In this document: positions 14,630 to 18,178 of the stretch, in pieces
Layout of the letters: the number at the start of each line of letters is the position of its first letter
Numbering within the stretch: position 1 is the first letter of the stretch
Source: a virus
IMG/VR virus record: IMGVR_UViG_3300025102_000329
Location: 1 to 22,171 of that record
DNA length: 22,171 nucleotides
Reading direction: 5' to 3' (one strand)
Program-made: the position numbers and the translations under genes
Notes under the pieces: generated by a model
Told to the model about the DNA's origin: nothing
Database searches by the model: none
The model's input: the letters and a program-made list of their open reading frames with translations, nothing else

Positions 14630-15697
14630 ATGAAAAAACCATTCGTCAGGAACGATATCGAATTACCTGTGCCACTAACCAGTGCGCCAGAAGATAACCG
14701 AAACTACGACGTTGCGTTCGATACAGGTGGCGAGTCTTCTATGGTGGAGACTTCTAGGGAACCCCCAGACTACAAACCGTATCCCTTTGCCCTGAGACCT
14801 GCTCCCGAAGGTAAAATACACATCTACTTCGGCGTTTTGGTTCATCAGATTAACCGGATGGTATTTGAGAACGGTTTGTTCGTGTCCCAAACGGGCGTGG
14901 GTAACCCGCAAGTAATTGTCCCCAGTAACCTAAGCAGTGCTGAGAACCGTTATAAATTCTATGACCTAGACTGGCGCGGCGATGTTTACCTTTACTGGGA
15001 AACCGATTCAGGGGGTAATGTTACTTCATGTGAATTAAAGGGTCCAGATGAGCCGGAGCAACAAAGCTTGCCTAATGAAGACGGCGGTAAGTTCTGGGTT
15101 AAAATCGGGAACGTCGCGGAAGGGGACGCGGGTTACGACATCAAGTCATTAGACCAGAACATATCTACCGACGTTTATTGGCTAACCGCTTTTGCAGATC
15201 CAGAGGATGGGAGCGATGGCTCCGACTCTAGCACTAGCTCTAGCTCTAGCTCTAGCTCTAGCTCTAGCTCTACCTCTGATTCCGGTTCCGATAAATCAAC
15301 GGCCATTGTGCCGATGGACTGGCATGACAAAGGATACGGTGCGCTGTTCACGATGGAGTCCAACGAGGTTCTCTTTGAGTTCGTGATGCGCGACGTTAAA
15401 GTAGTCGGCCCCAAAACCGTAACCCGAATCGATGATCGATTTTTGGCGGTATGCGAGCCGGACTCGATGACCATTACAGGCGTAGCTGGCGACAGGGCCG
15501 GATCAGTCGGCGCGGTAGTTGAAAAGAACAACGTGATCCTTTCAGCTTGGCCATTGTCTTTCTTGAGGCCCAAAAAAGTTACTTTGAAGTTGACCGGAGT
15601 TCGTAAAGGATTTAAGCATCTTGATATGCCTGAGCGTAGCAGAGAGCAATTCATCGCTAACGAGAAGTTTATCAACTCAGCCTATCCTAGAAAGTAA
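14630..15697 (+). CDS. Virion protein with poly-Ser linker (355 aa)
   Basis: I do not recognise a named family. Residues 1-195 form an N-terminal beta-rich domain (IHIYFGVLVHQINRMVF region). Residues about 197-223 are a flexible Ser-rich linker (DSSTSSSSSS...), encoded by six AGCTCT repeats at 15236-15271. Residues about 228-355 form a C-terminal domain with mostly hydrophobic strands, ending LTGVRKGFKHLDMPERSREQ and NEKFINSAYPR. The linker joins two independent domains, a design common for virion proteins exposed at the surface. Ser-rich linkers can be O-glycosylated, and three glycosyltransferase-like genes follow two genes downstream. The stop overlaps the next ATG (TAATG). Function beyond structural is unknown. 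Confidence 0.72.
   Translation: MKKPFVRNDIELPVPLTSAPEDNRNYDVAFDTGGESSMVETSREPPDYKPYPFALRPAPEGKIHIYFGVLVHQINRMVFENGLFVSQTGVGNPQVIVPSNLSSAENRYKFYDLDWRGDVYLYWETDSGGNVTSCELKGPDEPEQQSLPNEDGGKFWVKIGNVAEGDAGYDIKSLDQNISTDVYWLTAFADPEDGSDGSDSSTSSSSSSSSSSSSTSDSGSDKSTAIVPMDWHDKGYGALFTMESNEVLFEFVMRDVKVVGPKTVTRIDDRFLAVCEPDSMTITGVAGDRAGSVGAVVEKNNVILSAWPLSFLRPKKVTLKLTGVRKGFKHLDMPERSREQFIANEKFINSAYPRK
15236..15271 (+). repeat. Hexanucleotide repeat coding poly-Ser
   Basis: Six AGCTCT units encode Ser-Ser repeats. Gain or loss of units would lengthen or shorten the linker without changing frame. Confidence 0.9.
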
Positions 15698-16098
15698 TGT
15701 CGTTACCTTGTGAAGCACAAGCTACCTCTTACGATGCAGGCGGAAATCCAGTAGGGGTAGCTATTGACTTCGACTGGGATCAGAACAGAGGACTTTACAC
15801 AGATGCCCCTACCGACGAAGATGAGGATACTATCCAATGGAACGGAGTTGGTTGGATCTACACTACGTCCCTCGGAGACGTATACGTAGGAGGGACGGAC
15901 GCAGATGATCCGTCAGGTGATTACGTAGACACTTCTTCCGGTTCTTCGTCTAGCGCACTTACCATCACCGTAACCACTAGCGGTTCGACTTGCAATTACA
16001 GCAGCGACAGCGACAGCGACAGCGACAGCGACAGCGACAGTGACAGCGGTTCCGCTAAGAGTAGCTCATCAGTATCAGAAGGAGAAGGCTCACCGTGA
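15697..16098 (+). CDS. Small virion-type protein with Ser-Asp repeat tail (133 aa)
   Basis: The first 75 residues form a compact, acidic, aromatic domain (IDFDWDQNRGLY, IQWNGVGWIYTTSLGDVYVGG). The C-terminal half is low complexity: a Ser-rich segment, then a Ser-Asp dipeptide repeat (SDSDSDSDSDSDSDSGS) encoded by AGCGAC repeats (16003-16044), and an SSSSVSEGEGSP end. Ser-Asp repeats of staphylococcal Sdr adhesins are glycosylated on Ser by SdgA/SdgB, which is established for that system only. This gene ends inside the start of a glycosyltransferase gene (overlap 16095-16098), which invites the same idea here. No signal peptide is visible. The gene is placed with the virion proteins by context. 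Confidence 0.7.
   Translation: MSLPCEAQATSYDAGGNPVGVAIDFDWDQNRGLYTDAPTDEDEDTIQWNGVGWIYTTSLGDVYVGGTDADDPSGDYVDTSSGSSSSALTITVTTSGSTCNYSSDSDSDSDSDSDSDSGSAKSSSSVSEGEGSP
16003..16044 (+). repeat. Hexanucleotide repeat coding Ser-Asp
   Basis: Six AGCGAC units plus one AGTGAC encode (Ser-Asp)7. Expansion or contraction preserves frame, so tail length could vary between phage lineages. Confidence 0.9.
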
Positions 16099-16766
16099 AA
16101 AACCTAACAGACTGGTTTGACCGCGTTTACGTGATCAACTGCGCCCATAGACTGGATCGTCTTGAGGAGACCAAGAGGCATTTGGAAGAAACCGGAATGG
16201 CTAATAATGACTGGGTCCACTATTATCCGGCTATTATCGGCGACTGGACAACCTGTCCGGCGGACTGGGGTTCCGGCAGAGGGGCGTGGGGTTGCCTGCG
16301 TTCGCATCAGAGAATCTTAGAGGACGTAATCCACGACAGGGACGGGAACGGGAACCCGAACCTTATGAACGTATTGGTGCTGGAAGACGACGTAATCTTC
16401 AAGGACGACGCGCTAGAGAAGCTTAATGAGTTCATGGAGAACGTGCCGGATGACTGGGGCCAGATTTACTTAGGTGGACAGCACCGAAGGAAAAAAGGCG
16501 ATACGGACTCCCCTAACGTGGTAATTGGTAACTCGGTTAATAGGACGCACGCTTACGCTGTGAACCAGCCTACTTTCACGCAGTTCTACCGCCACATCTC
16601 CTACGCGACGGACTATCGAGACACGAACAAGCATATTGACCACCAGCTTGAGCTAGCGCACCGCCGCAAGGACTGGCCCGTTTACTGCCCGAAAGACTGG
16701 ATCGTGGGCCAGCGAGCAGGTTCGTCGAATATTAACGGTAAAATAAACGAGACCAAGTTTTGGTAG
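16095..16766 (+). CDS. Glycosyltransferase family 25-like
   Basis: This 223-residue protein resembles GT25 (LPS/beta-1,4-galactosyltransferase type) glycosyltransferases, which transfer a sugar from a nucleotide-sugar donor. Visible features are V-Y-V-I-N-C at 11-16 followed by R-L-D-R-L-E, a family hallmark. There is also G-A-W-G-C-L-R-S-H at 63-71 and the metal-binding acidic motif L-E-D-D-V at 96-100. A C-terminal part has many His and Trp residues. The length is on the short side for GT25 but complete. It starts with GTG at 16095, overlapping the stop of the Ser-Asp-repeat gene by 4 bp. An AAGGAG about 9 nt upstream is the only plausible Shine-Dalgarno seen in the window. It acts in the cytoplasm. 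Acceptor and donor are unknown; the neighbouring Ser-rich virion proteins or host glycans are candidates. Base composition matches the phage genes upstream. Confidence 0.8.
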   Translation: MKNLTDWFDRVYVINCAHRLDRLEETKRHLEETGMANNDWVHYYPAIIGDWTTCPADWGSGRGAWGCLRSHQRILEDVIHDRDGNGNPNLMNVLVLEDDVIFKDDALEKLNEFMENVPDDWGQIYLGGQHRRKKGDTDSPNVVIGNSVNRTHAYAVNQPTFTQFYRHISYATDYRDTNKHIDHQLELAHRRKDWPVYCPKDWIVGQRAGSSNINGKINETKFW

Positions 16767-17481: not shown

Positions 17482-17506
17482 GTAGCTAGAAATAAATTAA
17501 ATATTT

Positions 17507-18178
17507 ATGAAAATACAAGCAATATTATTTATGTGTAATGATTTTGCAAGGGCGAAATTTACACTAGAAAACTTTATAAAATGGAACCCACAAATCCCAA
17601 TCTTGGTGATTAATTCTGGTGGGGACTCTCCAAAGCCTCACTTAAAACATATACCCAACACATCTTTTTTAAATGCTCCAAACCTCTGGCATAAAAAAAC
17701 TGGCTGTGGTGGCTCTTTTGGTCCTCGGTATTATGATTACTTGTTTGAATATGGTTTAAACGACAATTACACACATACATTACTTTTAGAGACAGATGTT
17801 TTAACAAACAGGGAGATAACTATCGAGCCTAAATATGCTATTAGCGGCCCTAATAACCATTGCGGTCATAATGAGCATATTTTATATGACTACTTAAACA
17901 TAAACGACAACAGAATACATACTGGCTGTGGAGGCACGATGTTTAGTTTAGACTATTTTAAAACGATAAGCGAGCGAGACTATAACTTTTTTAAAGATAT
18001 TTTTGAAAAGTTTCCTGCAAATTATTTCGCGGATTTAATATCTACATTAGCGGCTAGAAAAAATAATCTTTCTTTTGGGCATTGGGAAGAAGTCTCGAAT
18101 ATTTCGCATCATATAGTAAATAATCGATTAGTAAACGTCAATATGGACGCCACTTTAGTCCACAATTATAAAGTATGA
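17507..18178 (+). CDS. GT-A-type glycosyltransferase-like protein
   Basis: This 223-residue protein has a glycosyltransferase-like layout: a Rossmann-like start (MKIQAILFMCNDFARAKF-TLENFI), P-I-L-V-I-N-S-G-G-D near residues 31-40, and a variant D-x-D (L-L-L-E-T-D-V-L-T, E95/D97). Later comes G-C-G-G-T-M-F-S-L-D-Y-F, typical of the segment before the catalytic base in GT-A enzymes. I cannot assign a CAZy family. It is strongly AT-rich, unlike the phage genes to the left, and favours A/T-ending codons, indicating separate origin. It overlaps the UDP-galactopyranose mutase start (ATGA at 18175), so the two are probably made together. It may use UDP-galactofuranose, but this is inference from adjacency. 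No Shine-Dalgarno precedes the ATG. Confidence 0.65.
   Translation: MKIQAILFMCNDFARAKFTLENFIKWNPQIPILVINSGGDSPKPHLKHIPNTSFLNAPNLWHKKTGCGGSFGPRYYDYLFEYGLNDNYTHTLLLETDVLTNREITIEPKYAISGPNNHCGHNEHILYDYLNINDNRIHTGCGGTMFSLDYFKTISERDYNFFKDIFEKFPANYFADLISTLAARKNNLSFGHWEEVSNISHHIVNNRLVNVNMDATLVHNYKV

Follow-up and report, generated by a model that had tools for sequence, protein, structure and literature searches.

A candidate self-glycosylation cassette with serine-rich tethers in the structural module of an environmental phage

When a phage carries glycosyltransferase genes directly behind the genes for two serine (Ser)-rich proteins, the question arises of what these enzymes modify: proteins of its own particle, the surface of its host, or its DNA. 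This arrangement is found in the complete IMG/VR virus record IMGVR_UViG_3300025102_000329 (22,171 bases, referred to here as the window), which from the size and order of its genes is read as the structural module of a podovirus-like phage. The segment that raises the question begins at position 14630, and its features are all encoded on the plus strand. In this work we propose that it is probably a phage self-glycosylation cassette, in which a glycosyltransferase of the GT25 family would prime the Ser tethers of tail or adhesion proteins, and the enzymes encoded in a variable slot would extend the glycan.

Two Ser-rich proteins and the GT25 gene behind them

The first gene (14630..15697) is an open reading frame for the poly-Ser protein, of 355 residues, which comprises a variable N-terminal domain, a Ser-rich linker (15206..15283), and a conserved C-terminal domain of about 135 residues (15284..15694) that starts with GSDKSTAIVP and is named here the KSTAIVP domain. 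The linker contains six AGCTCT units from position 15236, which code for the longest Ser run of the protein, of 12 residues. An overlap of 1 base pair (bp), in the sequence TAATG, joins this gene to the open reading frame of the Ser-Asp protein (15697..16098, 133 residues), which includes a small predicted beta domain, seven AG[CT]GAC units that encode (SD)7 (16003-16044), and the C-terminal peptide GSAKSSSSVSE (16048..16080), recognized by comparison as a conserved element with the consensus GSxKSxxSVSE and present in one copy per protein. Both repeats had been described in an earlier note on this DNA and are real; they go beyond chance, as none of 20,000 residue shuffles per protein equaled the Ser12 or the (SD)7 run. 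The 4-bp overlap claimed between the Ser-Asp gene and the gene behind it was also found, as the sequence GTGA at 16095-16098, where the stop of the former meets the GTG start of the latter. This next gene (16095..16766) encodes GT25 (PF01755, E 6.6e-7, 29.8 bits against a cut-off of 24) and is followed, in the variable slot, by a GT8 gene (16819..17481; PF01501, E 3e-6, 27.5 bits against 24.3), so both family assignments of the earlier note stand above the Pfam cut-offs. The KSTAIVP domain and the peptide had gone unrecorded there, as had a UDP-galactopyranose mutase gene and a short stub described below.

In GT25, the acidic metal-binding motif EDD (E97, D98 and D99) is invariant in 18 sequences. 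Its profile matches in the PDB include procollagen galactosyltransferase 1; the nearest solved structures (E 5.5e-8 to 2.1e-7) are the collagen galactosyltransferases, also of family GT25, and mimivirus R655, and the presence of a protein glycosyltransferase among them is a point in favor of a protein acceptor. The GT8 protein has a weak PDB match to LgtC (E 0.23).

We infer that the poly-Ser and Ser-Asp proteins are virion proteins, because of their position in the structural module, the PHROG tail and virion matches of the nearby fiber gene (12017-13351), and the fiber-like fold of the C-terminal domain. This domain shows 36 invariant columns in an alignment of 19 sequences with 46-96% identity to that of the window, and its AlphaFold2 model is beta-rich, with a predicted local distance difference test (pLDDT) score of 81. 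The best meaningful Foldseek matches in BFVD are predicted phage tail-fiber proteins; in the PDB, the fold has no match below E 0.001 and the domain no sequence relative.

Exchange of the enzyme and retention of the Ser-rich proteins

Relatives were collected from IMG/VR by searches with the portal protein (49 loci) and the poly-Ser protein (25 loci); individual loci are given below as L numbers. Among the 50 records searched, GT25 was found in 17 and the KSTAIVP domain in 24, and all 17 records with GT25 carry the domain. The seven records with the domain and without GT25 comprise three in which the contig ends close after the domain, and four that form a clade, here called type II, in which poly-Ser is kept, on neighboring genes as well, and a GT9 heptosyltransferase takes the place of GT25. 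Poly-Ser proteins that do not match the domain are also accompanied by GT9 in L140. The domain-less portal relatives with a readable slot have no Ser-rich slot genes (with a threshold of 13 or more Ser in 30 residues), no GT25 or GT9 in the record and no GT2 above the cut-off; in two relatives (L123 and L125), the N-terminal domain of the poly-Ser protein is present without linker or C-terminal domain, and the homologue ends at the point where the linker would start. The enzymes of different families that occupy the slot have in common their neighbor, not their fold.

That the enzyme changes at a constant position while the Ser proteins stay is the strongest argument for glycosylation of the tethers as the most likely function. 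Two tail or adhesion proteins would display domains on flexible Ser-rich tethers, and the co-translated GT25 would add the first sugar to a tether Ser (perhaps Thr); in type-II phages it would be GT9 that starts the glycans. The slot enzymes would extend them (GT8, possibly the product of the third gene behind GT25, and UDP-galactofuranose provided by the mutase), and on the released particle the glycosylated tethers would stiffen, protect or disguise the receptor-binding region. Gene order, conservation, co-occurrence and the exchange of enzyme families are direct observations; the Ser tether as acceptor, the sugar, the action of GT25 as first enzyme and the benefit to the particle are what we infer from them.

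Two profile scans reached phages without other visible kinship: that of the domain gave 48 viral and 8 bacterial-genome loci, and that of GT25 gave 67 viral loci. The order of the cassette is a protein with a variable N-terminus, a Ser linker and the KSTAIVP domain; a Ser-rich variable protein with the peptide; the glycosyltransferase; and variable sugar genes. All 50 distinct linkers have at least 5 Ser per 40 residues and 42 have at least 10; their composition is 45% Ser and 13% Gly, and the types found across phages are SSS, SD, ST, SA, SG, SE and SQ, with Ser alone common to them. Because TCN and AGY codons are mixed in most linkers, it is Ser itself that is retained. Directly behind the domain, 38 of 43 genes are Ser-rich, and the overlap with the domain gene is mostly 1 or 4 bp. 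The domain loci form 29 clusters, 26 of them with usable downstream sequence, and GT25 or GT9 lies downstream in 23 of these; the remaining three carry a Stealth-like gene (L178), a GT7C/pyruvyltransferase and an O-fucosyltransferase-like gene (L180), and a GH130-like gene (L182), several of these matches being weak or below the Pfam cut-offs. Taking GT25 as the reference, a Ser-rich gene is directly upstream in 22 of 40 non-redundant clusters and downstream in 0 of 28 (Fisher p 4.6e-7), and only 1 of 176 genes distant from GT25 is Ser-rich (p 3.5e-18 against the upstream position); since the clusters are still related by descent, they are less independent than these p-values imply. At GT25 loci without the domain, a Ser-rich gene is upstream in 7 of 21 clusters and downstream in 0 of 15.

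Several observations weigh against glycosylation of the tethers. A directly upstream Ser-rich gene is missing from 18 of the 40 GT25 clusters, some of which have tails rich in Ser, Thr and Pro (in the GT25 loci L228 and L236, such a tail is on a gene like that of the poly-Ser protein) and some nothing evident. In two distant relatives, GT9 lies beside a protein that is Gly/Thr/Ser-rich and not Ser-rich. The portal tree contains just two to three independent changes; each is neutral or agrees with expectation, but by themselves they do not reach significance. Finally, GT25 enzymes that glycosylate proteins and those of the lipopolysaccharide (LPS) type are indistinguishable by sequence here. 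The functional coupling of Ser-rich particle proteins to these transferases, as suggested in the earlier note, passes the comparison proposed there: linker and transferase are both present or both absent in the relatives, and the association extends to the GT9 clade and to unrelated phages. In the reverse direction, from GT25 to a Ser-rich neighbor, the association is weaker, given these 18 clusters.

The transferases could instead modify glycans of the host surface (LPS or capsule), for example in superinfection exclusion; their location would then reflect a host-interaction cluster near adhesins, and the Ser linkers would be plain spacers. Members of PF01755 and PF01501 are typically LPS enzymes, host-interaction genes are frequent in tail-fiber regions, and the GT25 loci that have no Ser-rich neighbor would fit. 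We nevertheless consider this explanation unlikely, given the fixed place of the enzyme, with overlaps of 1-4 bp directly behind the Ser-rich gene, its replacement by GT9 or others with the Ser proteins kept, the lack of GT25 and GT9 in near relatives without linkers, and a Gly content that is low for a plain spacer. Glycosylation of phage DNA bases by GT25 is highly improbable. Its weak PHROG matches are labeled 'glucosyltransferase', and DNA-hypermodifying phage glycosyltransferases are known (cited in PMC12619734); however, the gene lies inside the structural module, is coupled to Ser-rich proteins and is exchanged with GT9, and no gene for base modification was noticed among those of the window.

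The conserved domain and peptide, and known glycosylation systems

The counterparts of the Ser-Asp gene show an extreme variation in length and domain content (84 to 551 residues near the window); for instance, a propeller-like domain was recognized by eye in L058, L059 and L062, and immunoglobulin-like repeats by Pfam in L069. The GSxKSxxSVSE peptide is present in most of the genes that follow the domain, in C-terminal, middle or N-terminal position, and GSxKS is the start and spacing that peptide and domain have in common. The peptide as a recognition site for GT25 was rejected as the main interpretation, since it tracks the domain and not the enzyme: full-length GT25 loci without the domain also lack the peptide (38 GT25 loci have neither, including loci with ample upstream sequence), the seven GT25 loci with the peptide and without the domain seem to be fragments or to have short flanks, beginning just upstream, and the type-II loci, with GT9, retain a form of it. 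This distribution, with the domain and not with GT25, suggests a function linked to that of the domain, for instance docking to it or binding of a partner shared by both. In a single-chain AlphaFold2 model of the natural read-through of L056:7686-8534 (stop as Gly, 21-row alignment) the peptide is disordered, with pLDDT about 30, and docking is unsupported by this model.

The same elements bear on another explanation, in which a particle protein is glycosylated elsewhere, for example at Lys or Ser residues of the domain or of the GSxKS peptide, or in a collagen-like run of the fiber protein, and the Ser tethers are incidental. It would account for the extreme conservation of the domain and the peptide, and the solved GT25 relatives act on collagen lysines; the fiber gene of the window has a Gly-X-Y-like run. 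We regard it as quite improbable: the peptide does not track GT25 and persists in some form beside GT9, the acceptor of collagen GT25 enzymes is the hydroxylysine of collagen and a lysyl hydroxylase was not noticed here, and Ser richness recurs at GT25 loci that lack the domain. A broader proposal, which we put forward tentatively and hold to be rather doubtful, is that the KSTAIVP domain and the peptide are a matched pair that joins an exchangeable domain on a glycosylated tether to the tail, the glycan being altered by enzyme swaps, and that the set is mobile, having reached phages of podovirus-, siphovirus- and myovirus-like type whose hosts are Verrucomicrobiota, Planctomycetota and Acidobacteriota. 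Genes near the cassette in unrelated phages include a tape-measure gene in L072, a major tail gene in L191 and a gene with a weak baseplate-wedge match in L074. The assemblies behind the bacterial-genome loci belong to Opitutae, Verrucomicrobiales, Phycisphaera, Pirellula-type bacteria and Acidobacteriales; they are metagenome-assembled genomes, in which binning errors are possible; a serine recombinase near L191 and an integrase-like gene near L192 are as expected of prophages.

Virion glycosylation by phage-encoded glycosyltransferases has been described in mycobacteriophages (Freeman et al. 2023, cited in PMC12619734). According to PMC12619734, these enzymes, like those studied here, are proposed to modify proteins of the phage's own particle, and glycans are reported on capsid and tail-tube subunit C-termini; in contrast, the enzymes described here are locked to Ser-rich proteins of adhesion type, in an apparently mobile cassette that also includes a conserved domain and a conserved peptide. 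No report of poly-Ser linkers with phage glycosyltransferases was found in the open-access literature, so that, as far as we found there, the mobile Ser-linker cassette is new, virion glycosylation itself being already known. If the proposal is correct, particle glycosylation would be a common and transferable trait of environmental phages, beyond mycobacteriophages, with a searchable signature (Ser linker, KSTAIVP domain, GSxKSxxSVSE peptide and sugar enzyme) that predicts sugar-bearing proteins and residues; GT25 and GT9 enzymes may act on simple Ser-rich peptides, and phage receptor-binding regions would vary through sugars besides protein.

The earlier note had drawn a parallel with the staphylococcal Sdr proteins, whose SD repeats are acted on by SdgA and SdgB, enzymes of the GT-B fold (PMC8561734). 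The window shares with that system Ser-rich repeats beside glycosyltransferase genes, and a true (SD)7; it differs in that its enzyme is GT25 and not GT-B, SD is one of many linker types, the setting is a phage and not a cell wall, and the translations of the two Ser-rich proteins contain no LPXTG, the sortase-type anchor motif. Since the linkers vary and only Ser is common, the comparison is an analogy. For the type-II clade, the GT9 enzyme may be comparable to autotransporter heptosyltransferases such as TibC/Aah: in both, GT9 is next to Ser-rich surface proteins, whereas the type-II genes belong to phages, are placed on the opposite strand and include no autotransporter. In the type-II loci L132, L133 and L134, several structural genes carry near-pure poly-Ser (up to 30 of 30 residues); one of them is the homologue of the window gene 19334-20296, which is there separated from its second half.

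The variable slot and neighboring genes

In many of the loci, the GT25 gene overlaps the gene in front of it by 4 bp. Behind GT25, the slot contains, depending on the phage, GT8, PF04488-type genes, a second GT25, a GT2-like gene with a methyltransferase, or a mutase; that these are sugar enzymes speaks for the proposed glycan extension. In the window, GT8 is followed by a third gene (17507..18178, 223 residues), possibly a glycosyltransferase; the earlier note had called it GT-A-like, a label based on appearance that finds no family match in Pfam, PHROGs or NCBIfam. The next gene encodes the UDP-galactopyranose mutase in a short form (18175..19167, 330 residues; PF03275, 3.7e-50), which lacks part of the family model (330 against 378 residues) and has a gapped TIGR00031 match below the cut-off; the homologues of L069 and L070 are likewise short (328 residues). 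A stub of 14 codons and a stop, MKKVIITGVTGQDG (19171..19215), was read from the sequence, and resembles the start of GDP-mannose 4,6-dehydratase. The third gene, the mutase and the stub form an AT-rich island (17507-19215; 34% guanine plus cytosine, against about 48% around it), which points to a later insertion of the third gene and the mutase; the island looks like a recent insertion into the slot of a sugar-gene block, now partly decayed. In L069, the region beside the cassette (L069:9887-15747, minus strand) carries a PfkB-type kinase, a cytidylyltransferase-like gene, a cupin, a mutase and a GT2, and resembles a phage-borne nucleotide-sugar pathway of the heptose type.

In the rest of the window, the portal (from 4847), scaffold (from 7350) and coat (from 8823) genes were assigned from size and order, few genes of the module being named by PHROGs, and the genes after the fiber gene are read on the same grounds as further tail or head-tail genes. 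Among 50,697 phage records, and at the sensitivity used, no isolated-phage relatives of the portal, the Ser-Asp protein or the domain were found; GT25 has only distant matches there (25-28%), in uncultured and Prevotella jumbo phages. In the gene 10521-11336, a 12-bp repeat (AAAGCAAAGCCT) occurs ten times at 10887-11006 and codes for a Lys/Ala/Pro/Glu repeat; the homologues of this gene vary greatly in length. The fiber gene has a collagen-like Gly-X-Y run (GPTGPAGAAGAAGANGAAGP) at about 12119-12190; this run and a GT25 whose solved relatives include collagen glycosyltransferases thus co-occur in one phage. Two GT25 loci show additional features next to the enzyme: in L253, a sulfotransferase gene (L253:2561-3115; PF03567, 2.7e-10) lies between the Ser-rich protein and GT25, and a sulfated glycan is possible at this locus; in L245, the Ser/Gly-rich protein directly upstream of GT25 (L245:4370-6001) contains a Hint/intein-like segment (CFLFGTLVRLEDGRRVPIERLKPGD).

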